Assembly: GCF_032118995.1 (NCBI RefSeq)
Contig: NC_092651.1
Location: 11,185,285 to 11,249,284 of the forward strand
Reading direction: 5' to 3'
Source: Asterias amurensis
Lineage: Eukaryota > Echinodermata > Asteroidea > Forcipulatida > Asteriidae
Length of the DNA stretch: 64,000 nucleotides
Of this stretch, positions 3,811-63,950 are shown in pieces. The notes below the pieces were generated by a model. It was not told the DNA's origin and did not search any database. It saw only the letters and a list, made by a program, of their open reading frames with translations. The position numbers and the translations under genes are program-made. Each line of letters begins with the position of its first letter. The stretch's first letter is position 1.

Positions 3811-4169
3811 AGGGTCTATGTAACTTTTGCAGGACAAAAAACACAATGTCCACAGATTTACACTAAACTTACACAGTTTGAAGATAATGATAGTAGAAAG
3901 CTTCCCTGAAAATATTACGTGCTGAGGTGCTGTAGTTTTGGGGAAATGAGTAAAACAATGTCATGAAAATAATTTTTGTCTCATGAGACGAAAATTATTT
4001 TAATCATTTACAAATGTATTTTCATGACATTGTTTTACTCATTTCTCAAAAAACTACAGCACCTCAGTAAGTAAAATTTGAAGGGAAACTTTCCACTATC
4101 ATTATCTTCAAGCCCTGTAAGTTTAATGTAAATCTACGGACATTTTGAAAAGGTACCCAAATCCTTTAA
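3807..4169. mobile_element. MITE family B (foldback) copy 1
   Basis: Nearly the whole element is a long inverted repeat: GAGTAAAACAATGTCATGAA on the left and its inverse on the right, meeting at a TCTCATGAGA centre. TTAA lies at both ends, the left one shared with the neighbouring family A element. Non-coding. Confidence 0.87.
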
Positions 4170-5353
4170 GCAAGGTGTGGATTACTTAGAATGGCATTTG
4201 GCAAGCAAAAAAAGGACACAGCGATTCACACTTCATCTTGAATTCAGTTTTCCCAAGAAACTTTTCCTCTAGTTTATGCATTTTTAACATTTTCTACAGA
4301 GATACATAATTTTGTGGTCATCTATATCGGAAAACTCATTTGTTTAAAGCTGTTTTTTGTAAGTTGCTTATTTGTAATTTGTATCTTTCTCTCATTGTAC
4401 ATTTGATTGTTCTCTTTATGCCATTAGAGGCTTATCGCATTAGGCGCTTTACAAATGTCTTTTCTTCATTATTATTATTTTTATTATTATATTTAAAGTA
4501 ATACTTAATTTTAATAAATTGTTTTACATTAAATAGTGAGTATCCTAACCAAAGCCCATGCAATGCAGTGTTTACCAATAGACCGTGCTTGGGATCAGTT
4601 TAAGTGTGCAAGTTTGTTTCCTACATGAGTTTAAACAAGCCAGTGCAAGAGTTCTTAACACCTCCATAAGGCTGCAGCCATTTTATGTCATCTTCAAGTT
4701 CAAATCAACAGCGCTTTTTCTAAACCATGGCTCGGGGCTTTTTAGATAACATGCACTTTCCTTACGGAGCTTTCATCAGGCAGACAGAGCCTGAGCCCAA
4801 AGCCCAAACCAAAACCGCAGTTTCAAAAACACCCCATGTATCACCAAACCAAGGCTGCAAAACAAAATAGCCTGGCTCCTGCTTTGGTGCAACGAGGAGT
4901 ATCATTGACACAGTCAGGGTTGTAGACAAAGATAGCTGCAGCATCATCTGGGCCAAATTTCATAAGCGCAAAAACTTACTAATCAGAAACAGGTTACCAG
5001 CCAAGATGCCAATGTCATATGATCACTTTAGTGACTGGTTTCCTGCTAACTTTTGCTAAGCAGCAATTCTTAAAGCAGAAAAAATTGGGTCAAAATGTAA
5101 CAGGTGCCAAACTGTAACTCATAAAGTAAGTACAGTGTTTGCGCGCAGTGCATAAAAAGGAAAATAAATAAACAATTAACACCTTGCTTGGTAAGTTAGT
5201 ATTTTTAAGTATTACTGGTTATTCTTCAGAAACATGCACGTTAATTATTCATCACAAAATACTCAGCAGGAATGGGGTAAAAATATATGATAAATAAATT
5301 GCTATTTTGCATATTAAAAAATGTACATAACCATGACGATTCAGATGATGACA

Positions 5354-17300: not shown

Positions 17301-20300
17301 ATTAAACTGACCTGATCTGTTTTCTACCGACAGTGGGTTCGATCCCGAAGCTTCTACATCCAAGTTTGCAGCACGTCTTGGAGCGGCAACAGGATGATTT
17401 GAGGTACTGTCTACAGCAGATGGCTCTTTGGGAGCTGCAGGGGTTTTCAGGGCAGGTGAAGGGACTGAGTAAGATGTGTCTTTAGAGAACCCACCAACCT
17501 CACTGAGTGGTCTGGCAGCGAGGATGGTTATTTCAGGTCGTCTGGTGGTGGAATTAAAATGATATTTTAGCATTTGAGAAAGAGTCTGCTAGGGGCGAAT
17601 TGTCAGGCAATTAGTTATTTTTATTTGCATACGTGTATATACCATATGTCCTTTTGGTTGGTAAGCAGTTTGCAACTGTCTATTCTATTTTCTCATATGA
17701 TATATGTTACACATTACTGTACAAGTTTCTAGGATCTTCTTTAATAATCAAAAATGTAAGAATATATTCAATAGTTTGGGGTACACCATCTATGTTTAAG
17801 ATGATATTTAATAGATATTAAATTTGCTTCGTAGATAAAGAATATTCGTTTTGGTTCTACCAGCCGAAAATTGTACATGTGACATGTTAGTTTGGCTGGT
17901 AACCTTATTCTAGTAAGCAACATTGAATGTTCATTTTGGCTCTACCAGTCGAAAATTGAACATGTGACATGTTAGTTTGGCTGGTAACCTTATTTTAGTA
18001 AGCAACATTGAATATTCATTTTGGTTCTACCAGTAGAAAAATTTTACATGTGACATGTTAGTTTGGCTGGTAACCTTATTCTAGTAAGCAACATTGAATA
18101 TTCATTTTGGTTCTACCAGTCGAAAATTGTACATGTGACATATTAGTTTGGCTGGTAACCTTATTCTATAAGCAACATTTGGTTGTGCTTGCTTTTAAGC
18201 AGCTCAATTAAAATTGGGCTCAAAATTAGGAGTCTTTAAATCTATTTCCGATCCTACTTTTTCTGGGTTGTGCTTCCAGTGGATGGTTTATCCTTGATGC
18301 TAGGCGCCTGGGACAGCGGGAGATGTACGCTGGCTGGTCTGGTGTTTCTCTTGACCTCGGGTCTCAAGTGAACACTAGCCGGTCGAGGTTTGACTTGGAC
18401 TGGAGGTCTTCCGGGGCCTGTACAAGGGGATGGTCAATTCAATAGTTAATCAAATAATGAATACAGCGCTTGAGAGATGTTTCCAATTTTGTTTCCATTA
18501 TTTCTTGAAGTAATGGGAAATGCTGAGGTCATAGCATAGCCAGAGGGTGTCTTGTATTTTATGTATTAAGGTAATTGAACAATTTGGACACCAAATTTTT
18601 TAACTACCAGCAAATTCGTACACCCTTTTACCAGATCCTGGCTAAAACCTTGACTGAGGCCATGTCCTGATAGGCACTGTCCTGGAAATGTGCCGCACTC
18701 TACCTTTAAAGGTAATTGGTAATTACTCAAAATAATTAATAGCATAAAACCTTATTTGGTGACAAGTAACGGGGAGAGGTTGGTGGTCTAAAACATTGTG
18801 AGAAACGGCCCCCTCTAAGGGCACATAGTTTTCGAGAAAGAAGTAAATTTCCACGAATTTGATTTTGAGACCTCAGATTTAGAATTTGAGGTCTCGAAAT
18901 CAAGCATCTGAAAGCACACAACTTCGTGTGACAAGGGTGCGTTTTTTCTTTCATTATTATCTCGCAACTTAGACGACCAATTGAGTTCAATTTTCACAGG
19001 TTTGGTATGTGACAATAACCAATAGTGTCCAGTGTCTTTAAAGAATTTTACATTTTATTTTTTACAGGGACTAAGGAGTTTAGACCATAAGCAACAATCT
19101 GTTTAATTAGGACCCCACCCCACTATTGCCTGTGATCTTTGTTTCACAGAGCTTGGGCAAAGTACTGAGTATGCAGTGATAACACACATCGTTGTACACG
19201 GGTAAAACCAAAATTAATAATCTGTTTATTGCTCTCTGAAAAGGTGACCTCAACTTCTTCCAAGAAGTGTGGATAATAATAATAACACCGAGCTGCCAAT
19301 TTTTATGCATCTTGTTATCAGGGGGATTGTGTCCAATAATCAGGGAGATATATTAGAATTGCATTCAACGTAATAGGGAAAAAAGTTTCCATATTACAGA
19401 GATTTTCAAATTCACTCCTCAGAACATGGAAAGATTGCTTTATTTTTAAGGAACTTTCTGCAGAATCAGGGAGAGGTGGCAGCTCTGGAAACATCATGCA
19501 CTTTAATAGATTGCACCATCTAGTGGCATCCTGAGGCGCATGATGAAGGAAGATACATTACCGGCAGATGGTCTTGCTGGAGGCTGGCGTCGAATCACAA
19601 CACCACTGTGGAAACAAATTGAAAAACAAAAAAAATTAGAAGTATTCAGGTCAACCCTTTCCTACAGCAATCACAAACCTTACCCAATGTTAATTTGTAA
19701 CTCAGTGAAAGCATCTCTTTTATCTCGTTCTGAAACGAACCAGTGGTTAACGACTCAAAGTTTTTGATCAGTATGCTCTGATCGTCTTCAGGAGAATGTT
19801 AATTTGTTAATTTTTAAAAAACAATTCAGCAATGAACAATTATAATCTAGATTTATCTCTACATTTTTAGACCTTCATATTATGTTTATTATGCCATTTT
19901 GTTTGTTGCCACTCAAATAAATGAAATAAGACCAAGACTGGTTAGTGGTAGCCTGATGCCTTGGTAGCCTGATGTCTTTTTGATAAAGCAAAAAATAGTA
20001 ATCATTACTTTTAAGTGAAGACAGGGAATTTGAGCATCATGACAAATGTTTACAAGTGAGGAGATTATGAAGTATGCATTGCACTCTCAGTTAAACCCAA
20101 AGTGCATTCTTCAAATGTCTCAGCATCTTCATACGCTATATGCCAAGACACAAGCAATATTCTGCAAGAAAAAGATGTTCATTTAGGGGCCATTCTGAAA
20201 ACCACTGTAAAATATTTGGATTTGTTTTTGCTTTTGGTTTGACCCAATGACACGCCCCGAATTCTGGTTTAAAAAGTATTGACCGACTACTCAATACGTG

Positions 20301-24453: not shown

Positions 24454-27400
24454 ATGTTTAGTCCAACCATGGCGGGAACCAGTGCAAATCATGGGCACCA
24501 GCCTGCGGAGGTAGGACCCCAACAAAATAGATTTTAAAGACACTGGACACTATTAGTAATTGTCAAAGACCATTCTTTTCACTTTGTGTATCTCAAGATA
24601 TGCATAAAATAACAAACCTGTGAAAATTTGAGCTCAGTCGGTCGTTGCAGTTGCAAGAAAACAATGAAATTAAAAGCAACCTTGTCACTCGAAGTTGTGT
24701 GCTTTCAGATGGTTGATTTCAAAACCTCAAACTCTAAATCTAAGGTTCCGAAATCAAATTCATGGAAAATTACTTTCTCGAAAACTGCACTTCAGAGGGA
24801 GCCGTTTCTCACAGTGTATTATACTATCAACAGCTCCCCATTACTCTTTACCAAATAAGGTGTTATGCTAATAATTATTTTGAGTAATTACCAATAGTAT
24901 CCACTGCCTTTAAGCATTATGTATAAAGTGTTTGAGCTTTTCCCAACACTTCTTTGTCCCGGCCATACCCCTAGTTGTAGGGTTTTCCCGGGTGTTTCCA
25001 GCAGCAGCTTCTAAATGTGCCGCAGCACCTTGTAAACCCTTACAAGGTACTCAATAATTGGGTCTAATAGTTATTATGGGTGCATTCGATTAGCTTCCCT
25101 GGGTCTACCCCGCTGTGCTCACTACCCCTAAGTGACCCACTCTGCAAGCAGGGCACTGGGGGCTGACCTGAGTGAGCCCCTGGAACGATGTCAAAGCTAT
25201 TCGAACGCACCGGGGTAGACCCAGGGAAGCTAAATGAACGCACCCAATGATAAGTGCTTTGAGACGCCCATAGATATAGTACTAGATACAAAATCGTTAT
25301 TATTAACACGAAACACTTGGTGATGATTTTGGCTTTGGAAGAAGGTATCTAACTTGTGGCCCTTGGCACTTTTTCAGCTGGTTCTATTTTATTATGAGTA
25401 CATTCCTTGCCAACTAATCTAGACCTTGTGGCTACGCTTTTTGTAAAGTATTCCACCTAGTAAAATCTGTATTTTTCCTTGCCTCCAGGAAGATTTAGTA
25501 GCCCATATTTTGAACAATGATCACGAGGAAGTACCCCTAAAACTTTCAAGCGAGAACAAGTTTTATCAGGTTTTATTGGAATGGGAAATTCAACTCCTCG
25601 AAAAGCCCAACCCCTTGCAAGCAACCTGTTTGTAATCGTTCGTGATCACTCGATCCACATAGCCGTAGAAATTACAGCAAACCAAGGAGTTTCGAGGGCT
25701 CTTCGGGGATCACTTACCCGTGAAGACAAAGTTGATTTCTAATTGACGATCAACCCAATGGAAGACAGTGCCACACAGCTGCTCTGGATGTTTTATCCAA
25801 ATTCTGCTCTCTCATTTGTTGTGAAATCGTCATGTTTGTATCCGTAGGTTTTCCGCAAGGATCTGATCAGTGCCATGAAGCTGCCTGACTCCTACCAGCT
25901 TCTGCAAGACGAGTACATGGTCATCACGGACACATGGAAACAAGAATGGGAAAAAGGGGTCCAGGTACCGGTTAACCCTAGTAGCATCCCGTCAGTGACA
26001 TGTGAACAGAGCAAGGAATGGCAACCAGTGAACTTTAAACTGTAAGCACACCTTGAGTCTATCGTTATGGCCGAGCGGTTAAGAGCACCGGATTCAAGCT
26101 CTGGTGTTTGATCAGCAGAGTGTGGGTTCGAATCCTGGTCATTACACTTGCTACTTAAAATTAGGGAGGTAGTGCTCTCTGCTCTACCGGCCAGGCTTCG
26201 GACTGATGATACCCAACCCTACATCCATATGGACTGAAAAAGGGGTAACCCAGGTTCAGTCCTAGGAGTAGGTTGCAACGGCCTCTGGGATAAAATAAAT
26301 GTAGCCCACACCTTAAAGTGGCCTTCTGGCCTTGTGTGTCTGGCGACTTTGTATAATAAGTTTCAGGCATGGAATGACATGCAGGCAATGGAGGCCAAGG
26401 TCTTGGTGCCCTCTCAAAAATTTCCCATTGACTTTCACATTTTCAAATGGAAGTGCCCTTTGCAAAATGAAAACCGCCTTGCCCTTTCAATGATGAAATT
26501 CCAGGTATGAAGTTTAGAGTTATATTTTTGAAAGGGCAAGGTCTTTTTCTTAAAAAGGGGGAAAGAGCGCTAATTGTTTGACAAAACGTAGTATGTCTGA
26601 AGGAATATTTTGAAGGAGCACCAAGGCCAAGACTAGACCACAAGAAGCAATGGTCTTGGTGACCTCAATTTAATTCTATGCCTTTTGATTATCCCTTTTT
26701 TCACATATTGTGTTGTCCAAGCAATTATTGGGTCTAATTTAGCGCTATGGATTACTCTACATCTGTTGAAATATTTGCAATTTTTTGCACAATTGATGAC
26801 AGTAGAGACACAAATTTATGGCTATTTCCCTCGATAGAGCGGCGTGTAGGTACACAAAGAGATAAATATTTCCCAAACCAGAATGAACCTAGCTGATACA
26901 AACAAAATGTTGTCAGTGAACCCTATATTATCACTCTAATCATTGAGCAGGCCTGTATGCTTCGTTTTGAAAGGGCTGGGGCACCAAGGCATTTTCTCCT
27001 TGGTAAAGGGCACCCTATGATGAAACTGTCAATTTATACTGGGCACCAAGGAAATCACCAGGTGGCACGGAGGTATTATCACTCTAATCATTGAGCAGGC
27101 CTGTATGCTTCGTTTTGAAAGGGCTGGGGCACCAAGGCATTTTCTCCTTGGTAAAGGGCACCCTATGATGAAACTGTCAATTTATACTGGGCACCAAGGA
27201 AATCACCAGGTGGCACGGAGGTATTATCACTCTAATCATTGAGCAGGCCTGTAAGCTTCGTTTTGAAAGGGCTGGGGCAATGTGGCATTTTCTCCTTGGT
27301 AAAGGGCACCCTATTGGGGAATTGTCAATTTCTACTGGGCACCAAGGAAATCACCAGGGGGCACGGAGGCAATACGTGTAATTGCCTTCATTGCCTGTGT

Positions 27401-30400
27401 GAAGTATCAGGCCTAATTGGTCGTGTAATTTTCTTCAGAATTTCAATCTGTTTTTCTTAGATTGGTCTGTATATTTTCTTAATTTGCTTAATATTTTTAA
27501 CCTCTGTGAAGCGCCTCGGACCCTTTTGGGGTTTATGGCGCTATATAAAAACCATTTATTACTATTATTATTTTTTATTGATAGAGAATAACTTTACACT
27601 ACATTGTGACTCGCAGGCCAAGAAAGTTGATCTGTATGTCAGGAGGTACAGCTGAGCAGGAGGATTTTGCCGATGCCCACCTCAAGAAGCTGGAGTCGGT
27701 TTGTCTTTATGACCTGGATGAGGTTGATGAGCAGTGGCTAGAGATTGTCAATCAAGAGAGAGATGAGATGGGTAAGGAGATTGCCAAAAATATTAGATTT
27801 GGTTTTTACAGATGTGTGATAGCACCGTATACTCAGTGCTTTCCCTGAGTACTGTGAAAATATCACAGGCATGTTACTCGGGTGGGATTTGAACCCATGC
27901 CCCTTGCAATTCTAGAGCAGTGTCTTACCAACTAGACTACCAAGATTGTCCGGTAGCTAGAGGCAATTTGAATCCTATGTTTTGGCAGTGAGTTGAGATT
28001 GCCAAGGTTGAAAAACAACATCCTTCAATACAGTGTCAAGTTTGAACAAAGACCTATGCTTAAAGCCCAGTTCGACTTAATGTGAATGTGAAGCTAATTT
28101 TTACATCTCATGGCTGTTTTCACAGCGAATGTTTCTTATGAGTTGAAAAACACATGACAACTGTTGTGAATTGTGTTGTCAAAATTTGTATCGCATTCTC
28201 AGGAAATATGAACCAGGCTTTACAAGTGCATGCGCACAGACGAAGCAACTCTAGTCATGTTGTCCACTGAACCGGCTATTTTCGCATGTTATCATTTTCG
28301 GCAATAGCCCAAATCAGCTAGTGTAGACCTCATCCTAGAAGTTGTCGTCTGGCATTATGATGTAAGGCAATTTCTCATTATTATATTTTGTCTGTCTGTT
28401 CATTGTAGCTATATATTAATTATGCATACGTTTCTCTCAGGCGATCCGCCTATTGATGAGTTTACCATGGAACAGATCATTGAAGAGTGCGAGATGCAGG
28501 TGAGTACGTGTTGTGTATCTCTGTTTGGTTGTAAAGAAGAAATCAGTGAAAGATTGCTCGTAAATTAACTCATCTTAAAGGCACTGGACACTATTGGTAA
28601 ATTAATCAAAATATCTGTTATCATAACAACTTACCTGGAAACAGGCAATGGAGAGCTGTTGATAGTATAAAACATTGTGCGAAACAGCTCCCTCTGAAGT
28701 ATTTTTTTAGAAAGAGGTAATTTCTTACTCAAATAATAATGTCGGGCCTGAAGCCTTTTCGATTCTTAATTCTAATTCTAAAGCAAATTTTTTCATTCAA
28801 TCGTCTGTTTGTTTTTGTGACTCTACAGTGCCATAAGAACATGGATCATGCCATGCAGACCGAGGAAGGACTGGGTATTGAGTATGATGATGATGTCATC
28901 TGTGATGTATGCAGAGCGGTAAGTGCCGAATTGTCAGTGTTATTGTTTGTAGTTGTTTATTAGCGGCACTGAACACTACTGGTATTAACTCAGTGTCAGC
29001 ATACAATCTTAACTTGGTAACGAGCAATGTAGAGCTGTTGATAGGATACAAATATTGACTGCTTCGAGTGCTATGGTTAAAACTAAGACTCTCGAGGTGA
29101 TCCCGGGAGCGTGAGCGTTCGACCTTAACGCTGGTCCGCTGGCCAAATGCCAGTAGAAATCGCGGCGGACCAGCTGAAACACCTTGCCAACTGGTCCGGC
29201 TGACCAGTCAAAAATATCGGCAGCGGTACTACAGAACTATGACCATTTTTAAAATGTTTTCAGTCTCGAATAAAACATAACAATATTCACTCAAGGTTTG
29301 GATAAAACGTAAAAAAATCACTCGAAGTGCCGCTGAATGCTGGCAAACTTCCGACGAACACACAATACACAGCGCAACAGCCCATCATGCAACGCAAAGG
29401 CTTGTTGTCTTCGTATTAGTTCACGTGTAAGAAACATTGAACGCTAGTGGGCATTTCAGAATATTCGATAGCGTGAGAATAGACGCCCTCTATTGGTGAA
29501 AGTACGCGATAGCTTACGAAACTAGCTTCAATGGCCTTGACAAAAGACCACAAAGCAAAACACATTCTGTCGGCAGCATGGTCGTCAACGGAGCAGATTT
29601 CCGTGGGTCCTTTCCGTGTGGGAATAAGAGTCTAGCGTGTTTACGGAAAACAAGGCGTTGAGGCTTCATTCTACAAAAATTACCAAGTTGGGAAACTCTG
29701 GATGAGCAAAAAGGAGTATTTAATTGTGTTTCTTAAGGTTCTTCCATACTGATTTTGTTTAATTTTTTTTTGGACATTGTGTTTTGTGTTACAAAAGCTA
29801 CTAAAATCCATTAAAATGTTTAAATACAAAATTTCAAGAAGTTGACTGGTATCTTGTTTCTTTACAGCCGGACTGTGAGGAGGGTAATGAGATGGTCTTC
29901 TGTGATAAGTGCGACATTTGTGTACACCAGGTAAGTTTTCTGAATCCAAATTGTTAGATGTCAGTGTTTGGCGATTGTGGGGTACTTGATTTGAAGGGTT
30001 ATTTGGTTTGTTGTTCCAAGAAGCCTTAGTAGCATTGCCAGAACTGTGGACTGGTTGTCCTTAGCTGTCAGGTCTGGAATCTTTGAGAGGGCAAGGCCAT
30101 CTTCATTTTGCAAAGGCCACTTCCATTTGAAAATCTCAAAAGTCTAGACGAAACTTTTGAAGGGGCACCAAGGCCAAGACCAGGGCATGGGAGACTATAA
30201 CTTTTGTACCACCATATATTTCCAGACCTGTAGTATTCTAATATTAAAAGCATGTGAGGGCATTGACACAATGTGATTATAGGGTGAAATCTGGACTATT
30301 TGTAGAGTGAAATGGAAAATCCAGCTTGCTGCATGTATCCCTATCAATGTCACTTAAGTTTGTTCTGTGTTTAAATAATATTAACCTCATGCCCAGGGGT

Positions 30401-33400
30401 GATGGATCTCGCTGCGCCATTTTTTTCCCAGCATGCGTTGCTCGATCATAACCCCTGGAAGTGTAACTCGAAAATATCAAAACATAAGGGATATTACAAT
30501 TAGTCCTGTGGTTGATCCGTTCTGTGTTGGGCATAAGTTGCGCATACGCTGGATGCGCTGTGTGTAATTAAAGTCATAAACTTGCCTTGGCGTTCAGCGT
30601 TGCATGACAAAAAAAGTGAATACAGACATCTTTGTACGCACGCGTTCGGAGTATAGAGCTTTTTGGAGACGCACGGCATTGCAAATTTTTCGTGTATATG
30701 ATAGCCAATCAAAGACACGGATCGGAGTTTCCCTCCCAGGGGTTAGAGACGTACGCAGAGCTAGCATGATACGGCGCGCTGCCCATGGTAGCGAGGTTGG
30801 GTTAACATAACCAGACAAGTATTGTCATGTTTTGTGTTCTTTTATTTTTATACATTTAGGCATGCTACGGCATTGTGAATGGTGGTGACAAGAGTAGATG
30901 GGTTCTTATATTAATCAAACTAGTAGTGTGATATGTTGTGTTCCTTATTTGTACACTTTCAGGCATGCTATGGCATTGTGAAGGTACCTGAGGGGTGCTG
31001 GATGTGCCGTACCTGTGCTCTTGGGATTCAACCCATTTGCTTACTGTGTGGTGTCAAAGGCGGAGCCATGAAAAGTACAAGGTGAGGTTTGATTCTCAAT
31101 GTCTTTCTTTCTTTTGTTTTGATGACATTCCATTCGAGGAAACTTTGCAAACTCCCACAAGGGGATTTAAATGCCAAGCTGGCACAGCCAGTCTCTCTCA
31201 TAGAAGCGTTGGTTTGTTAACCATTGGTTTATCGTCTATGATTATTCAGGCATGACATTCTTCCTTCCTAGCTTGAAAATATATTCAACCATGCACATTA
31301 TACAAGAAAGTCGGGCCCTCGTGCTCAAAAATTATTTTCCTGCTTTTTTTTCCCAAGGACCAAAAGTTGTGCCTGGGTTATTGTTCTATGTTATTATGTA
31401 CTCTCCAAAACGCAATGTGAAAAGCAATAATAGAATCTCTCAACGTTAAAATGTCAATGTATCTTTGAGAAAGTAAAAGAATATGTTTTGGGTTTTTGTT
31501 TCTGTTGAACAGGAGTGGGACGAAGTGGGCCCATGTAAGCTGTGCTCTGTGGATCCCTGAGGTTAGCATAGGATGTGTAGAAAGAATGGAACCCATCACT
31601 AAGATATCACAGATACCGGTAAGATTATAATACTGAGTATATGTATATATATATATTTTTTAAATGATTTAGGATTGAACAAAGAAAAATTGACTAGAGC
31701 GGGATTTGAACCAACGACCTCCGGTTTAACGTGCCGGCGCTCTACCAACTGGGCTATCTAGCCCAATGTTGGTGGTCTCCCAATTTTGTCAATATCTTTG
31801 TTCGGGGGTGCCTGTCAGAAGCCATTAAACCGCAAACTGTGGTGTAGCCAGGGATCACACCCGGGTAACGATACAATCTGGGAAGCGGCAGACAGGGGAT
31901 CACCTTAAGGGGATGCAACTTTTTATATCAGATATCAAATAATAAACCACAAGGGAAACTGACTGGGTACATTTTTACATGATTTAGGATTGAACAAAGA
32001 AAAATTGACTAGAGCGGGATTTGAACCAACGACCTACGGTTTAACGTGCCTGCGCTCTACCAACTGAGCTATCTAGCCCTATGTTGGTGGTCTCCCACCA
32101 ACATATATATATATATGTTAATTTTTTTATGCCAGTCGCCAGACACACAAAGCCTGAAGGCCACTTCAAGGTATGGGCTACAATTATTTTTATTCCAGAG
32201 GTCGTTGCCACCTGCTCCTGGGGTTGAAACAGGGTTACCCCTTGTACAGTCCATACGGACATAGGCTTGGGTATCTCCAGTTGGAAGCCTGGTCGGTAGA
32301 GTACAAAGCACTACCTCCCCAATTTTACGCAGCAAGTGTCACGACCAGAATTCGAACCCACACTCTGCTGATCAAACATCAGAGCTTGAAGCCGGTGCTC
32401 TTAACCGCACGGCCATGACATGATGGTACAATTTATGGAAAGTAGCCATTGTGTGACGGTCTAGCTCGATCAGGGACTGAACACTAGGGCCACTGTGATA
32501 AGGTACAGTCAGTGGTGATGTGGGCAGCTGTTTGGAGGGCAGCTCCACACTCACAGACTGGACTTGCAATCTGGAGCATGTCTGCCTGACCATGACTAGT
32601 ACGAGGACTTGGTCACTACTCTTTTTTTTGTTCCTATTCTTAAATGTGTTTAGATTTTTTTAATGGCATATTGGGAACATCACAAGGCCACGCAGAAAGG
32701 TTTCTCAGATTGAAATGTATATTGCACAGGTTATCAGAAATAATTGCTTGTTCGCATGTGATGCTACTCCACGGTTCTAGCGTAGAAATTAAGGGCGTGC
32801 CCTGCAAGCAGAGAATGGTGAGCGTAAGGGCAGAATAAACCGTGCCAGGCATCGCATTTATTAATATGTTTTCAACACGCTTTTTTTCCAGGGAAGTCGA
32901 TGGGCGTTGATATGCAATCTATGTAGGGTCAGAACCGGCGCATGTATACAGTGTTCGGTAGGTAGACATTTCAGTGTTGAGTTTAAATTTTTAATAATGT
33001 TCGACGCTTTGCATGGTGTGAATAATAAGATCTAACTATAAATTAATATTTTATTAGATGTTAAATTTGCAGAATGATAATTTTGGTTTTACCCTTACAC
33101 CGATGTGTTAGACCACTGTATACTCAGTACTTTCCCAATTACTGTTGAACAAAAATCACAGGCATATTACTCGGGTGGGATTCTAACCCACGACCTTTGC
33201 AATTCTAGAGCAATGTCTTGCCAACAAGAGAAGAACAGATGTAGTCCTGGCGATTCCAACATTGTTTTCTGCTCTTCTTCGTGTAACAGTTGTGTAAAAA
33301 AGAAACTTAGATTGTTTTCATTGGATTATGACTTAAGCTCTTACCAATATTTTTCATATTCTACTCTATAGGTTAAAACCTGCAAAACCGCTTATCACGT

Positions 33401-36400
33401 CACGTGTGGTTTTCAGAACAACTTAGACATGAAGACGTATCTTGATGACGAGGTTGAAGTTCGATTCAGAGTAAGTGTTAGGCAGCGTTGTAGCCACGTT
33501 GGGCAGGCAGGCCTGCTCGGCACTGCCCAGAACTAACACATTTCGCCCAGCACTCTGATCAAAATACACTGTGCCGCCCTGCACAGATTTCCCCCAGATT
33601 GCAATTCAGCAATGACAGACCATTATCTAAACATGAATGTTTTTGTTGTTCCGCTCATCCTTGGTGGATTTAGAGCCCCCCACTATAATTTGGGATAGGA
33701 AGACAAATATCTGACGGAAAGTAAAGTGCCCCCTATGAGGAAAATGTAATTTTCCACTTGAGCATGCCAAGGCCACGACCATGGGGCATGGAGACAAATG
33801 CCTTTTCATTCATTCGAATGTATATTTATTTCCATACTTCATTGCCTCCATGAAGTATCCGGCCTGTGGTCAATTTGTGGAACCTGTTATGAATATATTA
33901 TTACTTTTTGTCTCTCTCTCTTGAAGTCGTTCTGTTTGAAGCACAGCAAGAAACGGAACCCTGATTCAGATACTGACGGTACGCCCCAAAAGAACTCGGC
34001 AACGGGAACCCCAAAGAAAGAGAAATCTTTAGAAGAGAAAGACAATGAGCGTGCAATAAGGTAAGCAATACCTTTCATAGAGCTGCTTAATTAAGCATAA
34101 GAGTTGCTAAGTAGTAATTAACAGGGTACCAGTAAAAAATGTACATAAGACATGGTAGTTTTGGCTGGTAACCTTATTCTGGTGAGCATAATTTGATTGC
34201 ACTTAGCTACTTTTTGTGCCTAAGCAGATCAATGAAACTGGGCCCAAATTAACTTGTTTAAGTTATCTTATTATGGAGTATTAAAAACACCGGTCCTTAA
34301 TGCCATTGGACCCTTTCGGTTCAGAAAAAAATAGAAGTTCACAGATTTTCAAATAACTTACAGGGTTTACAGAAGGCAGTGGTGAAAGACTTCTCTTGAA
34401 ATATTAGTCCATGAAATGCTTTACTCTTTGAGAAAACAGCAAAACAATATAAATTCTCGTTAACGAGAATTACGGATTTATTTTTATACATGTCATGACA
34501 CGGCGAAACGCGCGGAAACAAGGGTGGGGTTTTCCGTTGTTTTCTCCCGACTCCGATGACCGATTGAGCCTAAATTTTCACAGGTTTGTTATTTGATATA
34601 GAAGTTATGGTACACAAAGTGTGGGCCTTGGAAAACACTGTTTACCGAAAGGGTCCAATGGCTTTAAAGTAAAACTGCTTATCACAGTGCCATACAAATT
34701 TTGTCCAAGTCCAAACATTTTGGCATGGAGTGACCATCCACAGGGTCGACGCAGTAAAGATTAAGGTTATCGGAGGGTAAATCGTGCTAGTAGTCATTTT
34801 ATTTTTACATGTGCCTCTGTCTTCTTCAGAATTCAAAATGTGACGGAAGATTTCTACAAGTACGCCAAAGTAAAAGAGGTTTGCACAAACCTTAGCATGA
34901 AGGACGACATTGACGTTGTGGATCTTGTGTTTGAGTACTGGAAGCTTAAAAGAAAGGTTAGACAATTTTGAATTAACTAATGATTTTGATTTCAATCATG
35001 ATAATATTTGAGTGTTGTTCCTAGAAAGGAGCTGTTCAATTATTCCATCAAGATCAATAATAACATGTAGCGGCCAGATATATTGTTGGTACCTTCTGTC
35101 GCTTGCTTAAGTGGATAGGTTCGACGTTCTTGTGAAAATACCCAGAGAGCTTTTTGCTTTCATCTCGGCAAGAAGACACTATAGTCATTTAAAACAGTGA
35201 CTTTTATTGTATGTTTCTTTCTAATTTTGCCTAAAAAAAAAATAAGCATTTTATTTGTCAAAAACTAGTGTATGACCCTGCCCTTAAAGCAGACCCTTTC
35301 GGTACAGGGAAAAAAAAAAAAAGTTCACAGATTTACCAATAACTTACAGGGTTTACAGAAGGTAGTAGTGAAATACTTTTCTTGAAATATTGTTCCATGA
35401 AATGCTTTACTTTTTGAGAAAACAGTAAAACAATATCAATTCTTGTTAAAGAGAATTACGGATTTATTTTAAACACATGTCATGACACGGCGAGACGCGC
35501 GGATACAAGGGTGGGTTTTCCCGTTATTTTGACCGATTAAGCCCAAATTTCCACAGGTTTGTTATTTGATTTAGAAGTTGTGATACACGAAGTGAGGGCC
35601 TTGGACAATACTGTTTACCAGAAAGGGTCCAATGGCTTTAACTCAATGGTGATATTTTTATGAAAGGAATTTAAAACTTATCTTTTTTTGATTTGATATC
35701 AGTCTTGTTTCAACAAGCCGCTGGTTGTTCTTCAGAAAGAGGAATCGCCGAGTTCCAATGAGGAATACAACCTCCACGCTAGGATGAGAATGTTTGTTCA
35801 TCTACGTCAAGACTTAGAGAGGGTAAGATGTTGCCTTGGTCTGAGGGGATAGGGGTTGGGGGTGAGGGTTTGTACAACCTCCATGCTAGGATGAGGATGT
35901 TTGTGCATCTACGTCAAGACTTAGAGAGGGTAAGATGTAGGCTTGGTCTGAGGGGATAGGGGTTGGGGGTGAGGGTTTGTACAACCTCCATGCTAGGATG
36001 AGGATGTTTGTTCATCTACGTCAAGACTTAGAGAGGGTAAGATGAAGGCTTGGTCTGAGGGGGATAGGGGTTGGGGGTGGGGGTTTGTACAACCTCCATG
36101 CTAGGATGAGGATGAGGATGTTTGTTCATCTACATCAAGACTTAGAGAGGGTAAGATGTAGGCTTGGTCTGAGGGGATAGGGGTTGGGGGTGGGGGTTTG
36201 TACAACCTCCATGCTAGGATGAGGATGTTTGTGCATCTACGTCAAGACTTAGAGAGGGTAAGATGTAGGCTTGATCTGAGGGGGATAGGGGTTGGGGGTG
36301 GGGGTTTGTACAACCTCCATGCTAGGATGAGGATGTTTGTTCATCTACGTCAAGACTTGGAGAGGGTAAGATGTAGGCTTGGTCTGAGGGGGATAGGGGT

Positions 36401-39193
36401 TGGGGGTGGGGGTTTGTACAACCTCCATGCTAGGATGAGGATGTTTGTGCATCTACGTCAAGACTTAGAGAGGGTAAGATGTAGGCTTGGTCTGAGGGGA
36501 TAGGGGTTGGGGGTGGGGGTTTGTACAACCTCCATGCTAGGATGAGGATGTTTGTTCATCTACGTCAAGACTTGGAGAGGGTAAGATGTAGGCTTGGTCT
36601 GAGGGGGATAGGGGTTGGGGGTGGGGGTTTGTACAACCTCCATGCTAGGATGAGGATGTTTGTTCATCTATGTCAAGACTTGGAGAGGGTAAGATGTAGG
36701 CTTGGTCTGAGGGAATTGGGGTTGGGGATGGGGGTTTGTACAACCTCCATTCTAGGATGAGGATGTTTGTTCATCTACGTCAAGACTTAGAGAGGGTAAG
36801 ATGTAGGCTTGGTCTGAGGGGGATAGGGGTTGTGGGTGGGGGTTTGTACAACCTCCATGCTAGGATGAGGATGTTTGTTCATCTACGTCAAGACTTGGAG
36901 AGGGTAAGATGTAGGCTTGGTCTGAGGGGGATAGGGGTTGGGGGTGGGGGTTTGTACAACCTCCATGCTAGGATGAGGATGAGGATGTTTGTTCATCTAG
37001 GTCAAGACTTGGAGAGGGTAAGATGTAGGCTTGGTCTGAGGGGATAGGGGTTGGGGGTGGGGTTTGTACAACCTCCATGCTAGGATGAGGATGTTTGTTC
37101 ATCTACGTCAAGACTTAGAGAGGGTAAGATGTAGGCTTGGTCGTTGGGGATAGGGGTTGGGGATGGGGGTTTGTACAACCTCCATGCTAGGATGGGGATG
37201 TTTGTTCATCTACGTCAAGACTTGGAGAGGGTAAGATGTAGGCTTGGTCTGAGGGGATAGGGGTTGGGGGTGGGGGTTTGTACAACCTCCATGCTAGGAT
37301 GGGGATGTTTGTTCATCTTTGTCAAGACTTGGAGAGGGTAAGATGTAGGCTTGGTCTGAGGGGATAGGGGTTGGGGTGGGGGTTTGTACAACCTCCATGC
37401 TAGGATGAGAATGTTTGTTCATCTACGTCAAGACTTAGAGAGGGTAAGTGATGTCCCTTCAAGAGTTAAACCTCTCTTTTATGTGAGGAATTTTGTATAT
37501 ACACATATATTGTTGCAAGTCCTAGAAATAGTGTGATGAACTTCACCCGAGCCAGTCCCAACCAAGCCTGATGCAATTGCCTCAATGCCCCTGGTCATTG
37601 CCTTGGTGCTTGGAATGTTCCCAGCGTAAGTTGTATTTTCCCCAAACAGGTGCACCTGTGAAGACCGAAGCATCGGGATGTCAAACTCTTCACAATCCAA
37701 CTGCATGCTATGTTTATAATTGAGTTGGACTGCACTAATTAACGTTTAATTCTCTGCCTCTGATCTTGCAGGTGCGGAATCTCTGCTACATGGTCCAAAA
37801 ACGCGAGAAACTAAGTCGTCAAATGGGTACACTGCGAGAGGAAATCTTTTTGAAGCAGAAACAGATCTTCAATAGTGATACGTCGAGTTTCTCACAAGAG
37901 GATCTGGATTTCGCAGAACAAGCCGCTGCCCTTAGTTCTCAAGTCACTGAGAAATCTGAATCCACGTTTGACCTTTTTTCAGAAGTCAGTGTCGACGAGG
38001 ATAAAGTAACTGAAGAGGTTAAACTTGTGGAGGACCTCGTGATGAGTAGCAGTGTCGTCAAACCTAAGAAATATTTTGAATCCAGCGAGAGTTCGTCTTC
38101 GGAGACGGAGAGCTACAGCGAATCGAGGAGTAGCTCCAGAACGGAGTATTCAAAGATTTCCTCGGAGTCGGACCAGAAGCCATTGAATCTACTCGCTGAT
38201 TTGGACTTCAATGCTGCGAATGCTGACAGGGACGTTAAGCGAAGTGTAGTGGTTGAAGGGAGCGATCAAAGGTTGACGGTGGAAAGTAGTGAACCAAAGA
38301 TTGCTCAAACGCCGTCTGGCAGTACCCTAGAACACAATGTCAACCATTCTGTGAACCTGAATAATAACAGTTTATTAAGGCAGAGACAACGAGGCAGTCA
38401 GTTAAAACGAACTGCATCTGATGTTGACCAAATCGATCATATACAAACGAAACGCATCTCCAGAAACGGTAGACACACGCAAAATTCATTAGTGAAATCA
38501 AAAATAGCTTCTTACCTCAAATCGTCAAAGTTAGACTTGCCGAAGCAAGACGTCAAACCTACACAGGGAAAGTTTATAAATAGTCCGGAATCAGCGGAGA
38601 AGCCACGGTACCCACGTCCGTCGCTGTCGCCAAGACAACTTCAGATGCAGGAGGAGGCAGCTCGTCTCCGAGAGCAGATGTTTGCCTCCAGTCCCGCATC
38701 CCGATCCCTCCTCAGTGGCTACCGCATCCCTAAGAAGAAATCCATCCCATCAAGCGAATCCTCACCCCCCGCTATCGAGGCAGACATCGCCACGACGTCG
38801 TCACAACCTGATAGGGAGGACCGCATCCTAACTGCGACCCCGGAAACGCGCAGCGTGCGTCGGAGAATCGAAGATGAACTCGACCGGGAGAGCAACTGTA
38901 GCGACCGACAGTTCGAGAATATCGACTCGGAGGTCAGTATTTGTCTCAAGGGGAAAGAGTCACCCGGTTCGGGCGACTCTGAGGATGACATCATCATCGT
39001 CGACGACGACCACCAGGAACAAGTAACGAAGCAGCTGCTATCCCAGGGCCTGAGCAGCTCAGGCGCAAAACTCACCAAAAGCCAAAGTGTAGATAGACCG
39101 GACGTGAATAACAGAGTGAATGACAACAAACCGGTTACTACAAGGTTATACGACGCAGCGTATCGTTTGCTCAACAGTGCTATTCCACTCTAG
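24454..39193 (+). CDS. JADE1: JADE-family PHD-finger protein, HBO1 acetyltransferase scaffold, 14 coding exons, 936 aa
   Basis: Coding exons: 24454-24510, 25848-26041, 27617-27771, 28441-28499, 28829-28918, 29868-29930, 30963-31081, 31513-31618, 32892-32957, 33372-33470, 33927-34060, 34830-34956, 35703-35822, 37772-39193. All are GT-AG and total 2811 nt in frame. An EPL1-like N-terminal region ([23 protein letters not shown]) is followed by PHD1, with cysteines at 180, 183, 197, 200, 208, 221 and 224 and His205, then a zinc knuckle (C232, C235) and extended PHD2 to about residue 343. A conserved helical segment ([18 protein letters not shown]) precedes a ~420-residue Ser-rich acidic tail. Family role: JADE proteins scaffold KAT7/HBO1 with ING4/5 and MEAF6 in the nucleus; the PHD module reads the histone H3 tail. 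An in-frame TAA lies upstream of the start; a second Met at 24469 has better Kozak context. Assignment to JADE1 rather than the JADE1/2/3 ancestor is uncertain. Confidence 0.93.
24534..24913. mobile_element. MITE family A copy 3
   Basis: TTAA-bounded, with ends ACACTGGACACTATTAGTAA and ATAGTATCCACTGCC. It begins only ~24 bp after the first JADE coding exon, in the opposite orientation to copy 2. Confidence 0.88.
25078..25245. mobile_element. 168-bp MITE F with ~36-bp terminal inverted repeats, JADE intron
   Basis: GGGTGCATTCGATTAGCTTC, CCTGGGTCTACCCCG at the left pairs with CGGGGTAGACCCAGGGAAGC, TAAATGAACGCACCC at the right. The centre is GC-rich. It interrupts an older SINE-like tail (AATAATTGGGTCT to GCTTTGAGACG). 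Confidence 0.87.
26062..26350 (+). mobile_element. SINE S1 subfamily with long body, JADE intron
   Basis: The head TATGGCCGAGCGGTTAAGAG, CACCGGATTCAAGCTCTGG and box B GGTTCGAATCC are clear. The body matches the reverse copy at 32130-32424 down to the end CCTTGTGTGTCTGGCGAC. Confidence 0.85.
26927..27375. repeat. 147-bp tandem triplication in a JADE intron
   Basis: Three copies of a 147-bp unit begin with TATTATCACTCTAATCATTG at 26927, 27074 and 27221. The first two are nearly identical and the third is slightly diverged. The unit body (GGGCACCAAGGCATTTTCTC) belongs to a dispersed repeat also seen at about 26390-26650, 30070-30200, 33710-33860 and 58325-58490. Confidence 0.9.
27815..27960 (-). 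mobile_element. tRNA-derived SINE S3, JADE intron
   Basis: The minus-strand reading contains TAGTCTAGTTGGTAAGACAC, GGGTTCAAATCCCACCC and the downstream segment CACAGTACTCAGGGAAAGC. Copies recur at 33100-33232 and 57640-57765. Confidence 0.7.
28575..28745. mobile_element. MITE family A, truncated copy
   Basis: The left half only, from TTAAAGGCACTGGACACTAT through GAAACAGCTCCCTCTGAAG. It lies in a JADE intron. Confidence 0.75.
30832..30986 (+). repeat. Short tandem duplication of the JADE exon 7 acceptor and exon start
   Basis: The stretch around 30832-30884 (pyrimidine-rich tract, TTTAG, then GCATGCTACGGCATTGTGAA) is repeated about 101 bp later at the true acceptor (TTTCAG then GCATGCTATGGCATTGTGAA at 30963). 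The upstream copy diverges after the first ~21 exon nt and would read into a stop (TGA near 30930), so it is a decoy 3' splice site rather than a second coding exon. Confidence 0.8.
31672..31970 (-). mobile_element. tRNA-derived SINE S2, JADE intron
   Basis: Minus-strand head GGGCTAGATAGCCCAGTTGG, TAGAGCGCCGG, box B-like GGTTCAAATCCC, then the body TCAATTTTTCTTTGTTCAAT. The acceptor stem does not pair as in a real tRNA and the body follows directly. Confidence 0.75.
31982..32096 (-). mobile_element. SINE S2, second reverse copy
   Basis: Repeats the S2 head and the start of its body (GATTTAGGATTGAACAAAGA to GAGCTATCTAGCCC on the plus strand) immediately after the first copy. It is followed by ATATATAT. 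Confidence 0.75.
32130..32424 (-). mobile_element. SINE S1 long-body subfamily, reverse copy in JADE intron
   Basis: Reverse complement of the 26062-26350 type: starts GTCGCCAGACACACAAAGCC and ends at GCGGTTAAGAGCACCGG on the minus strand. Short ORFs here are SINE sequence. Confidence 0.85.
33100..33232 (-). mobile_element. SINE S3, reverse copy in JADE intron
   Basis: Same order as the copy at 27815-27960: GTATACTCAGTACTTTCCC, ACTCGGGTGGGATT, GACCTTTGCAATTCTAGAGC on the plus strand. Confidence 0.7.
34074..34252. mobile_element. Foldback element E-type, JADE intron
   Basis: Starts TTTCATAGAGCTGCTTAATT and ends GAAACTGGGCCC. Its interior GGCTGGTAACCTTATTCTGG matches the 85-bp array unit at 17850-18235. 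Confidence 0.7.
34297..34667. mobile_element. MITE family C, full copy in a JADE intron
   Basis: Bounded by TTAA at both ends, with terminal inverted repeats GCCATTGGACCCTTTCGGT and ACCGAAAGGGTCCAATGGC. It has an internal TTCTCGTTAACGAGAA palindrome. No ORF of note. Confidence 0.85.
35284..35641. mobile_element. MITE family C, copy just upstream of JADE exon 13
   Basis: Flanked by TTAA, with the same internal sequence as the other two family C copies. Its left terminus is eroded, while the right terminus GAAAGGGTCCAATGGCT is intact. It ends about 60 bp before the acceptor of the exon whose end became a minisatellite. Confidence 0.82.
35766..37449 (+). repeat. Exon-derived minisatellite: 16 copies of JADE exon 13 end plus splice donor
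   Basis: Copies of TACAACCTCCATGCTAGGAT begin at 35766, 35873, 35980, 36088, 36201, 36309, 36417, 36524, 36632, 36739, 36847, 36955, 37067, 37174, 37281 and 37387, a period of 106-108 bp with two copies lengthened to 112-113 by an extra GATGAG. Each unit holds the last 57 nt of JADE coding exon 13 (encoding [19 protein letters not shown]), the donor GAGAGG/GTAAG and ~50 nt of G-rich intron. Copy 1 is the real exon end. Copy 16 has the consensus donor GTAAGT and runs into unique intron. No copy carries its own acceptor. Confidence 0.97.
37772..39193 (+). other. JADE1: JADE terminal coding exon: coiled-coil end plus disordered Ser/acidic tail
   Basis: This 1422-nt last exon encodes residues 464-936. 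It begins with [17 protein letters not shown], which continues the conserved [10 protein letters not shown] segment of the preceding exon, then becomes low-complexity with Ser/Glu blocks and basic patches. Near residues 868-876 an acidic-flanked hydrophobic stretch (DDIIIVDDD) resembles a SUMO-interacting motif. The stop TAG is at 39191-39193. A 151-aa antisense ORF at 38719-39174 is a shadow. Confidence 0.85.
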
Positions 39194-52200: not shown

Positions 52201-55200
52201 CAATACACCAACGAGCTACCGTGGCACTCTGAAGGCTTGTTCATTCACTACAGTATAACAACCTCTACACTCGCAGGTACCCATTTATGCCCCTGGGTAA
52301 AGAGAAGCAATTATAGTAAAGTATCTCGCTCAAGGACAAAAGTGCCATGACTGGAGTTCGAACCCACCACCAGTGTGACTTAACCTCCGGAACTTGAATT
52401 GGATGCTCTTAACCACTTGTCCACGACACGCTAATAGAGTTCACATCACTAGACTCAAGCTCTGGTGTTTCTGATCAGCAGAGTATGGGTTAAAGAATCG
52501 TGACACTTATGTCCTGAAGCATGTTAAGCTTTGTCCTTAGGATTGGACGTAAATGCGTTGGTCCTGTGCTTTGTGTAATGCACAAAAAAAATCCCTGTTC
52601 CTGGCATTGTCTGCTGAATGTGCCGTAGCACCTTGTAAACCCTTATAAGGTGCTATACTTGGGTCTCAGAATTCATCACTTCAATAACCTATCTTTCTGA
52701 GAAAACAAATTATATATACTAAGCACCTTCGGAGTACCTAGTTGGTAGATCCGTGCACTATTATCATATATTATTATAGTTGATGTAACTGCAGGTTTTC
52801 TAAAAGTTGTTGTCACTTTCAAGTTCTGCAGAAAACAAATTAATAATAATGGTGGTTTGTGTTGAAAGTATTTCCACAGGACTTTCTCAGTAAAGTTTGA
52901 AAACTAAAAACGTTAAACTTGTGTATGAATTATCTTTTTTTTATATTTCCTCTTGTAGCCAAAGGTACCAAGCTTTCTCTCATTAGACATTGACGGTCGT
53001 GTTCTTCGGTTTGACTCTTTCTCCAAAATTCTTTCAGCAGGGTAAGAATATGTTCCTTGTTTCACTCTTTATGTTTATTTTGTTAATCTCTCCACACTGA
53101 TCATTTGGCTCAGTGTATGTAAGCTCCTGTAGGGAAATACTTCTCATCAATTTAATAATTATTATTATAATAATAATAATAATAATTGTGTCTTCTTATA
53201 AAGCGCACATGTCAGTCACCCAGTGACGCTCCTGGCGCTGTAACATTCAGTATTTCCTGCCAGATGTGAGACTACGTTTGAGTTATGAGACCTAATTCTG
53301 ATAGCATCATGTAATGTTTTACAAAGTGCTGTGGTGCAATTTGCTGCCGATTAGACCAGGAACACCGGGGCAAACCCTCTCTCTTTTCGATAAGTGCACT
53401 GGGTTCTATGCATTACATTGTTGTTACTTTCACATTGTTTCATTTCTTACTAATGCATTTAACTGAATCTATTGTTTCTTCTATTTTCACATTGTTTTCG
53501 TTTCTTATCTCTTTGTTATTTCCACCTTGTTTAGTTTCTTTCTAGTGCAATTAACTGAATCTACATGTATTGTTTCTAAATCTCTTTGTTATTTCCACAT
53601 TGTTTCATTTTGTGCTGGTGCAATTACTTAAATCTTTATTGTTTCTATGTGACCAACCTCTTTGTTATTTCCACATTGTTTCATTTCGTGCTGGGCAATT
53701 ACTTGAATCTTTATTGTTTCTATGTGACCAATCTCTTTGTTATTTCCACATTGTTTCAATTCGTACCGGTGCAATAACTTAAATCTTTATTGTTTCTATG
53801 TGACCAACCTCTTTGTTATTTCCACATTGTTTCGTTTTGTACCGGTGCAAATGCTTAAATCTCTATTGTTTCTATGTGACCAACCTCTTTGTTATTTCCT
53901 CCATGTTTTTTCACTTTTTGCAGGTGAATTGAAATATAAATTTCATGCTTTGTATGATACAGGATGCGTGTTGGGTTTGTGACGGGGCCTAAGTACCTTT
54001 TATCAAAGGTCAACATGCACATGCAGTCTTCTGTACTACACACCGGTGGGATGTCACAGGTAGGGATTAACACATTCCCTTTTTTGCATCCCTGTGAAGA
54101 CATCTTTTGTTCTTTCCATTGTCCCTTTACTGTAGATCTTCCCATAGACTGTGTACGCAAAACTCCTTGTGGAGCACCCGGGCCTAATTTCATAGAGCTG
54201 CTAAGCACAAAAATTTGCTTAGCATGAAATTTCTTCTTTGATAAAAACAGGATTACCAATCAAATTTCCGTTTTGTTGCATATTGCTTGTTACCTGATGA
54301 TCGGCTGTTGTTTGCTCGGCCTGAAAACCATGTGGAAATTTGGTTGGTAATCCTGTTTTTATCCAGGCAGAAATTTCATGCTAAGCAAGTATGTTTGCTT
54401 AGCAGCTCTATGAAATTGGGCCCAGGTCTTCAGAATTTCCATATGGAGTGCTTTATTTCCCCCTTTTTTTGTTTTGTCCCTGGTCTCCATAAGGCAGTGA
54501 AAATGAAAGCACACACTCAGAGCTTTAAAAAGACCACCGATCACCATTGTCAAGTGGTTAGACTTGCAGTCACAAGGTTGTGGGTTCGAATCCCACAGCT
54601 AACCGCTGATTACACAATGACTAGAATAAGTATTGCTGTTTAGTTAGTGAATCACAGTTTCTTGATTTTAGCAATTCATAATCATAGATGTTAAACCTAT
54701 GTTTGTATGAGAGAGATTGGTTGTTGCCAGCTTGGTGTTTATATCCCCTTGTGGGAGTTTTCTGAGTTCCCTTGATGGGAAGATCATCAAAACAAACAAA
54801 CAAACAAAACAGACCCCTTGTATGTGACATCTCAGTCTAAAAATTGCCCTCACTGGGGTCAAAAATCGCCCTTACTGGGGTCAAAAATCGCCCTCACTGG
54901 CGTCAAAAATCACCCTCACTGGGGTCAAAAATCGCCCTCACTGGGGTCAAAAAACCGCCCTCACTGGGGTCAAAAATCACCCTCACTGGGGTCAAAAATT
55001 GCCCTCACTGGGGTCAAAAATCACCCTCACTGGGGTCAAAAATCGCCCTCACTGGGGTGGGGTCAAAAAGTCCCCTCACTGGCCTGGGGTCAAATTAGGC
55101 AAATGATTGGACAATAGCTGTTGTGCATAAACACATGTCCATGAGGTCAGCGTTCCTGTAGCATTTCACGCTATGGAGAGGTCTACGCCAACAGAGTCAT

Positions 55201-62398: not shown

Positions 62399-63159
62399 TT
62401 TATCGCAGATCCAAATGGGCAATTCCAAGCAAACATGGACATTACACCAAAAATCAAAAAATTTTCACAACTTTCTTTCCACTTGGAAGTTATAGCTAAC
62501 ATATGAAACCAATTTATTTTTAGTTGTTGAATGAACCAAATTTTGCCAACTAAGAACTCGGCTTATGGCTTGACTAAATTGACTGGAAAACTGCAGTTCG
62601 ATTGACCGTAATGCAACTGACAATGGTTTTTTCCATGGATACCTAATAGTTCAAGTTGCTGACCATTTATAAGTATCCTGCTGGATACTCATGTATACAA
62701 AACTAAGAGTTGTGTGTTACATGTAGTAAAACTTGCGAAAGTTTTATAGTTTGAGGAAACTTTTGAATTGTGAGTAGTTATATTTTTCCATGTTCTTTAT
62801 GTGTAATGCGACTGACCGCTTTTTTTACACCCAGAGCACGAAGCCCACAACATTTTTAATATCATCACTTCAAAGCCTCGTGTATTAAGTAGAAATCTAT
62901 AAACTTAGGGGAAAGAATAACTAACTTAGATTTACTAGCACCAAGATCAAGAAATGACACAGAAAAGTGTAATGCGACTGACCATGAAATTGCCCAAATT
63001 TAACATCTATTTAAAAAAAAAATTGAATGCACGTCTTACCATTACAAAAAAGCCTGTGTTAAATATTGATTTTTTCCCCAATTAATTTTGGTGTGTTTGG
63101 GTAGGGTATACACACTCAAACCGGGGACCTATTGGTATAGGTCCGTAGGTTGAAAGTGT

Positions 63160-63950
63160 GTGCAAAAAAAACAATGGAAACTGTTGCCAAAAAGTTACAC
63201 TACAAACAAAAGGGGGACACTGGAGATCCTCAATTGCAGGTGTTTACACTATGTGTATGAAATTAACTGTCCAAAAAGTCCAAGGGTTAAGATAATCAGG
63301 CTGTTTTTGCATGTCCCACACAGTGATGTGATTATTTAGATAATATTATTCAGATAATATGTGCAAAAAAAACAATGGAAACTGTTGCCAAAAAGTTACA
63401 CTACAAACAAAAGGGGGACACTGGAGATCCTCAATTGCAGGTGTTTACACTGTGTATGAAATTAACTGTCCAAAAAGTCCAAGGGTTAAGATAATCAGGC
63501 TGTTTTTGCATGTCCCACACAGTGATGTGATTATTTAGATAATATTATTCAGATAATATGTGCAAAAAAAACAATGGAAACTGTTGCCAAAAAGTTACAC
63601 TACAAACAAAAGGGGGACACTGGAGATCCTCAATTGCAGGTGTTTACACTGTGTATGAAATTAACTGTCCAAAAAGTCCAAGGGTTAAGATAATCAGGCT
63701 GTTTTTGCATGTCCCACACAGTGATGTGATTATTTAGATAATATTATTCAGATAATATGTGCAAAAAAACACAATGGAAACTGTTGCCAAAAAGTTACAC
63801 TACAAACAAAAGGGGGACACTGGAGATCCTCAATTGCAGGTGTTTACACTGTGTATGAAATTAACTGTCCAAAAAGTCCAAGGGTTAAGATAATCAGGCT
63901 GTTTTTGCATGTCCCACACAGTGATGTGACTATTTAGATAATATTGTAGT
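63160..63950. repeat. ~199-bp tandem array near the window end
   Basis: Four copies begin with GTGCAAAAAAAACAATGG at about 63161, 63361, 63559 and 63759, nearly identical over the whole ~199-bp unit. The fourth copy is incomplete, diverging after TATTTAGATAATATT, where the sequence becomes unique. Confidence 0.93.

Follow-up and report, generated by a model that had tools for sequence, protein, structure and literature searches.

The splice donor between the last two located coding exons of the JADE gene of Asterias amurensis lies within a real and remarkably clean boundary minisatellite, in which the end of the exon, its donor and, in all but the last copy, a short piece of intron recur sixteen times in tandem. 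The array is structurally a so-called mirage, as known from amphioxus, and it is one of several such arrays in the same genome. Most likely, it is a tolerated minisatellite that happens to span an exon–intron boundary, and not a regulatory device. The features discussed below are listed in Table 1. Positions refer to the 64-kb stretch of DNA that was analysed (64,000 nucleotides, referred to as the window), which is located on contig 4 of the 491.5-Mb, 23-contig assembly covered by our whole-genome DNA search.

Table 1. Coordinates of the JADE array and of related features. Positions are those of the window, except for the kinase loci (L047, L061 and L058), for which positions within the respective stretch are given. 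A slash marks the splice boundary.
Feature	Position	Strand	Basis or remark
Minisatellite across the exon–intron boundary: exon end in 16 copies, with 49–51 nt of intron behind all but the last	35766..37443	+	TRF, parsing, unit comparison
The 11th of 12 JADE exons located, with authentic donor 1 at its 3′ end	35703..35822	+	acceptor tttgatatcag/TCTT, donor GAGG/gtaagatg; frame runs on into 37772
Donor 1, GAGAGG/GTAAG; alone gives full-length JADE	35817..35827	+	parsing, U1 pairing
In-frame TAG read by any transcript skipping donor 1	35850..35852	+	upstream of the junctions of donors 2–16
G-quadruplex consensus motifs (15), one per intron-bearing unit, ~22 nt past donors 1–15	35845..37382	+	15/15 of those in the 64-kb window
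Copy 10: weak cryptic acceptor, CATTCTAG/G, 5.8 bits	36736..36756	+	acceptor matrix
Donor 16, GAGAGG/GTAAGT, followed by unique intron	37438..37449	+	parsing, U1 pairing
Last located JADE exon, acceptor CTTGCAG/GTGCGG	37772..39193	+	exon mapping and acceptor scoring
Second boundary duplication in JADE: ~51 nt of intron end and 20 nt of exon 5 (start 30963)	30808..30982	+	repeat comparison
L047, CDK11-like: donor-bearing arrays in two successive introns	3269–3863 and 4212–4576		
L061, RSK-like: exon end and donor at a 41-nt period, at least 19 GTAAG sites	1006–1801		array reaches the end of the 1.8-kb stretch
L058, PAK-like: 47-nt, 13-copy array directly adjoining the acceptor	981–1591		

A single array was detected by TRF at 35766–37448, with a period of 107, 15.6 copies and 94% matches. 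Together with parsing of the individual units, this bears out the first-pass annotation of the window, which had described a minisatellite built from an exon end and its splice donor, i.e., 57 nt from the exon end, the donor and ~50 nt of intron in 16 copies at ~107 bp, with all sixteen donors reading GAGAGG/GTAAG (16/16 upon parsing). The exon part of the unit measures 57 nt, or 63 nt in copies 4 and 12 (which carry a 6-nt insertion), and units are spaced 106–113 bp from start to start (107 or 108 bp in 12/15 cases). Copy 16 continues into unique intron sequence instead of the ~50-nt repeated intron part. Moreover, GTAAG is followed by ATG in donors 1–15 and by TGA in donor 16, which makes the latter a better match to U1 (predicted pairing of –10.8 vs. 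–8.9 kcal/mol for the other array donors). The last copy therefore indeed combines the strongest donor (GTAAGT) with the only unique downstream intron, as had been proposed, and this unique sequence is probably the ancestral start of the intron. When a 301-nt query from the array was searched against the whole genome, at least seven matches were retrieved, every one of them at the JADE locus (the search passes over simple repeats and common words, and its counts are lower bounds). RNA hairpins in three of the copies were not convincing when compared with shuffled sequences (z of –1.7, –1.8 and –0.9).

The host gene was recognised as JADE from the best matches of its located exons (JADE-3/JADE-1, including solved PHD modules) and from the presence of the traits of this family, i.e., an EPL1 segment, PHD and an extended 13-residue junction. 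Twelve coding exons were located, all with AG/GT splice sites and in a single open frame; the mapping starts at the exon on which the EPL1 domain sits, so that the array-bearing exon, numbered 13 in the first-pass annotation, is the 11th of the 12 located and any exons farther upstream fall outside this count. Joining donor 1 to the exon starting at 37772 rebuilds a 14-residue string that occurs in 103 of 120 homologues (the best 120 of 614), and at least 12 of the 17 listed homologues without this string carry VRNLTYM at the equivalent place. The predicted JADE coding sequence contains no retained repeat, and protein conservation at the junction is compatible with donor 1 only. Since the donor 1 junction is intact, the earlier suggestion that the array interrupts a stretch required for the helix between the PHD module and the tail is not supported.

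Full-length JADE can be obtained from donor 1 only, as had been claimed from the outset. The frame is lost with every later donor (0/15 keep it), because the intron part of copy 1 is 50 nt long and contains a TAG (35850–35852), which is the first in-frame stop. Stop codons located far enough upstream of an exon–exon junction lead to NMD (the 50-nt rule). With the junctions of donors 2–16 located 77 to 1591 nt past the TAG, this distance suffices by that rule, and transcripts spliced from these donors are predicted NMD targets. Donor 1 is most likely chosen via exon definition, in which the acceptor at 35702 would pair with the closest donor, at a distance of 120 nt, and the array would consequently leave as a ~1.9-kb intron. 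Under intron definition, by contrast, the preferred donor would be donor 16, which has the strongest U1 pairing and yields the shortest intron (328 vs. 1949 nt from donor 1). Transcripts from later donors would carry the premature stop and then be destroyed, or donors 2–16 might be ignored altogether.

The array had also been described as free of acceptors in any copy, which is nearly but not entirely right. The 143 AG sites in the array were scored on a small matrix built from JADE's 12 acceptors (the real ones of which score 0.5–7.8 bits leave-one-out). The highest value, 5.8 bits, belongs to position 36756 in copy 10, a mutated unit, and each of the five sites listed after it reached 2.0. 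Cryptic acceptors within the units might in principle turn a copy into a hidden cassette exon, and both the recurrence of TTGTACAACCTCCATGCTAG/G across units and the score of the copy 10 site, which falls in the range of JADE's real acceptors, point that way. However, the drop in score directly below the copy 10 site, and the fact that the exon it would open (36756–36795) measures 40 nt and would shift the frame, make such cassette exons highly unlikely.

Comparison of the copies provides some indications on how the array grew. At unit position 24, copies 1 and 16 both have an A, which is absent in all 14 inner copies (2–15), and the nearest relative of copy 1 is copy 16 (one exon difference), which itself is equally near to copies 3 and 13. 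This is expected if both edges are ancestral, and the shared variant, although a single site, suggests that edge units escape homogenisation. Inner copies do not look protected as coding sequence, given the amino-acid changes relative to the inner consensus in 6/14 of them (copies 4, 9, 10, 12, 14 and 15) and the 6-nt insertion in copies 4 and 12. The simplest course of events would start from the ancestral exon end and the intron now found downstream of copy 16, with the exon tail and donor becoming duplicated into the intron together with G-rich filler, and the resulting unit multiplying to 16 between the two edges by unequal exchange or replication slippage. Growth in this direction, from the boundary into the intron, would leave the real exon and donor 1 intact and the other 15 donors intronic.

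The intron-bearing units also account for every G-quadruplex (G4) motif of the window, as none was found on the + strand outside the array or on the other strand. The motif mostly reads GGGG-ATA-GGGG-TT-GGGGG-T-GGGGG, so that its loops are for the most part ATA, TT and T. Minisatellites are reported to be destabilised in yeast by G4 motifs whose loops are short and contain pyrimidines (PMC5491262). The JADE units each carry a motif with mostly such loops, the type reported as the most unstable one in yeast, and in this respect resemble CEB1/CEB25, which are human arrays assayed in yeast (PMC5491262). By analogy, G4-driven expansion is a plausible reason for array growth in JADE. As a general cause of boundary arrays it was rejected, because G4 motifs are absent from the RSK-like array (see below).

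Boundary duplications are not confined to this array. JADE itself contains a second one at the acceptor of exon 5, where two copies of ~72 nt (30808–30879 and 30912–30982) lie 104 nt apart and are 80.6% identical. The duplicated acceptor scores 6.7 bits, and the real one 7.1 bits leave-one-out or 12.7 bits when included in the matrix. Elsewhere in the genome, protein-kinase exons were surveyed from one family search with 136 matches, 58 distinct ones of which were examined: 30 matches as loci, 20 stretches with 22 short-frame matches (four of these among the 30), and 10 more stretches that were picked from the list blind to sequence. Some repeat of interest was present in 4/58 matches (L047, L061, L058 and L053; JADE is outside this count), in a survey whose first repeat screen needed an overlap of at least 10 nt with the match, such that abutting arrays could escape in the 26 matches outside the boundary comparison given below.

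A donor-side design like that of JADE was found in two of these genes, i.e., in the CDK11-like exon (L047) and the RSK-like exon (L061), both among the 32 short-frame matches. In L047, the exon end is present five times at 118–120 nt, with GTACGA as the authentic donor in copy 1, GTAAGA in copy 2 and no such donor in copies 3–5; in the preceding intron, GGTAAGCC of the apparent preceding exon's donor occurs five times in a 64-nt array. In L061, 18 of 19 GTAAG sites directly follow ATG and one (in copy 2) follows ATT. On the acceptor side, the PAK-like array (L058) multiplies TTCTAAC/TTCTTAC, which we take to be branch-point-like, together with CCCCTT and pyrimidine stretches, but not the AG. 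Finally, L053 shows a 33-nt copy of exon sequence (87.9%) located 124 nt upstream, without a clear boundary.

Whether splice boundaries attract such arrays was assessed on the 32 short-frame matches, where a nearby tandem copy was found for 3/64 boundary windows vs. 88/1375 windows of the same loci off the match (Fisher P = 0.79). Enrichment at boundaries was rejected on these numbers, which come from a small kinase-only sample in which HMM match edges only approximate exon ends and in which control windows may hold other exons and are not independent, as several can fall in one array. TRF arrays cover 3,250 of 140,020 bases (2.3%) of 20 seven-kb loci, and by this yardstick 3/64 is slightly high, with numbers too few to tell; a further yardstick, with looser criteria, is provided by 200 random 231-nt segments of these loci, 41 of which are accompanied by a direct repeat no more than 2 kb away. 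Minisatellites thus seem to hit splice boundaries about as often as other genic DNA. The similarity of these rates speaks against a special device, and just as much against any strong selective removal of boundary arrays.

Across the 15 full units, the longest stretch without any variation measures 14 nt and is exactly GAGAGGGTAAGATG, the donor, but selection on the donors was rejected as its explanation, since a run of this length arises in 25% of column shuffles (P = 0.25). This bears on the proposal that the array regulates JADE, with its sixteen U1 sites and G-runs/G4 motifs competing with donor 1 or buffering U1, and with a copy-number-dependent share of transcripts either entering NMD or encoding a shortened protein, in which both PHD modules are kept and the tail is missing. 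Such regulation would be in line with the intactness of all sixteen donors, with the exact coincidence of the invariant run with the donor, with the presence of a G4 motif downstream of each of 15 donors and with the stop at 35850 to which every misused donor leads, and there is a parallel in Bcl-X, where G4 ligands are reported to shift donor choice and a pre-mRNA G4 lies near each donor (PMC5778605). Nevertheless, the invariant run is readily reproduced by shuffling, arrays are not enriched at boundaries, arrays of other units occur in other genes, and the RSK-like array has no G4 motif. Neither AATAAA nor ATTAAA was found in the array intron, so that nothing points to a poly(A) site shielded by U1. 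We therefore consider a donor-competition or U1-buffering device, as put forward in the first-pass annotation, to be unlikely, and a regulatory function of the array to be possible but unsupported. It is likewise improbable that starfish contain many 5′-splice-site arrays whose copy number varies between individuals and sets the share of pre-mRNA ending up as premature-stop transcripts, as a heritable expression dial; if true, a fast-mutating minisatellite would tune host gene expression heritably. Tolerated noise, the third option raised in the annotation, is the best fit.

It is even harder to reconcile the array with the use of several donors to generate variable JADE protein. Stretches of 108-nt units do contain one open frame, for instance over 113 aa at 36162–36503, and there is a donor-bearing precedent in human IFI6 (6-16), whose minisatellite reportedly supplies multiple splice donor sites (as Turri et al. 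are said to have described in 1995) and is said to have a 12-nt unit of which the first few donors are used in frame. JADE shares with IFI6 a minisatellite that bears many donors, but its unit is ~107 nt long and its later donors lie behind the in-frame stop in the intron part of copy 1; with 0/15 of them in frame, an IFI6-type class was rejected for the JADE array and a variable protein is exceedingly improbable. A misassembly that inflated the number of copies is just as hard to credit. Tandem arrays are prone to such errors, but HiFi reads are comfortably longer than 1.7 kb, so that the 1.7-kb array falls well inside a single read; its units are also non-identical (11 distinct intron parts among 15), and the assembly contains comparable arrays at other loci. 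Moreover, although one amphioxus globin mirage is reported to have been aberrantly assembled in a draft (PMC3087553), the assembly statistics here fit those reported for a PacBio HiFi/hifiasm assembly of Asterias amurensis (PMC10625585).

The mirages of amphioxus are described as minisatellite-like tandem duplications of exon–intron boundaries that hold splice signals, reportedly without disturbing splicing (PMC3087553, PMC3902484). Those reported for Adh3, the globins BflGb6/BflGb9, TnC and PGBD5 are donor- or acceptor-side and contain many signal-bearing copies, as in JADE (PMC3087553, PMC3902484), and in the globin mirages inner units are reported to be homogenised and edge units excluded (PMC3087553). 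The JADE array likewise has exon and intron in its unit, retains a donor in every copy, and shows inner homogenisation with edge exclusion, the latter as judged from a single site. It differs from the amphioxus mirages by its occurrence in an echinoderm instead of a cephalochordate, by the intactness of 16/16 donors and by the G4 motif in 15 units, and its copy number, like that of the RSK-like array (16 and at least 19, respectively), compares with 6 and 3 units reported for two BflGb6 haplotypes (PMC3087553, PMC3902484). Internal tandem repeats of human segmental duplications are also reported at exon–intron boundaries, where they can change introns, but these vary among recent paralogues (PMC2812944), whereas the predicted JADE coding sequence retains none. 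No echinoderm boundary minisatellite was found among the best-ranked literature matches, in a search that covered mainly journals available without subscription; cryptic donors of echinoderms are treated in PMC2721852, where no occurrence of the word "minisatellite" was found.

With the JADE array, the range of boundary minisatellites would widen from lancelets to echinoderms, and the survey, although small, suggests that in this starfish they are not rare. Arrays in which 16 or more near-identical donors precede one acceptor also constitute natural experiments on 5′ splice site choice by the spliceosome when the candidates are equal; they bear as well on intron lengthening and on whether the growth of boundary repeats is deleterious.

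Other repeats were noted in the window as well. A JADE intron contains two copies (31657–32097; 96% identical over 126 nt and 315 nt apart) that are each tRNA-like on the minus strand, and a third tRNA-like match lies at 27874–27946; these are probably tRNA-derived repeats, and none of the three tRNA matches found with Rfam lies in the array. Further minisatellites are located at 1320–1817, 7361–8109, 17840–18179, 26926–27369, 53507–53899, 54835–55058 and 63159–63945, and TAGTAAG is present within the consensus units of those at 7361–8109 and 17840–18179.
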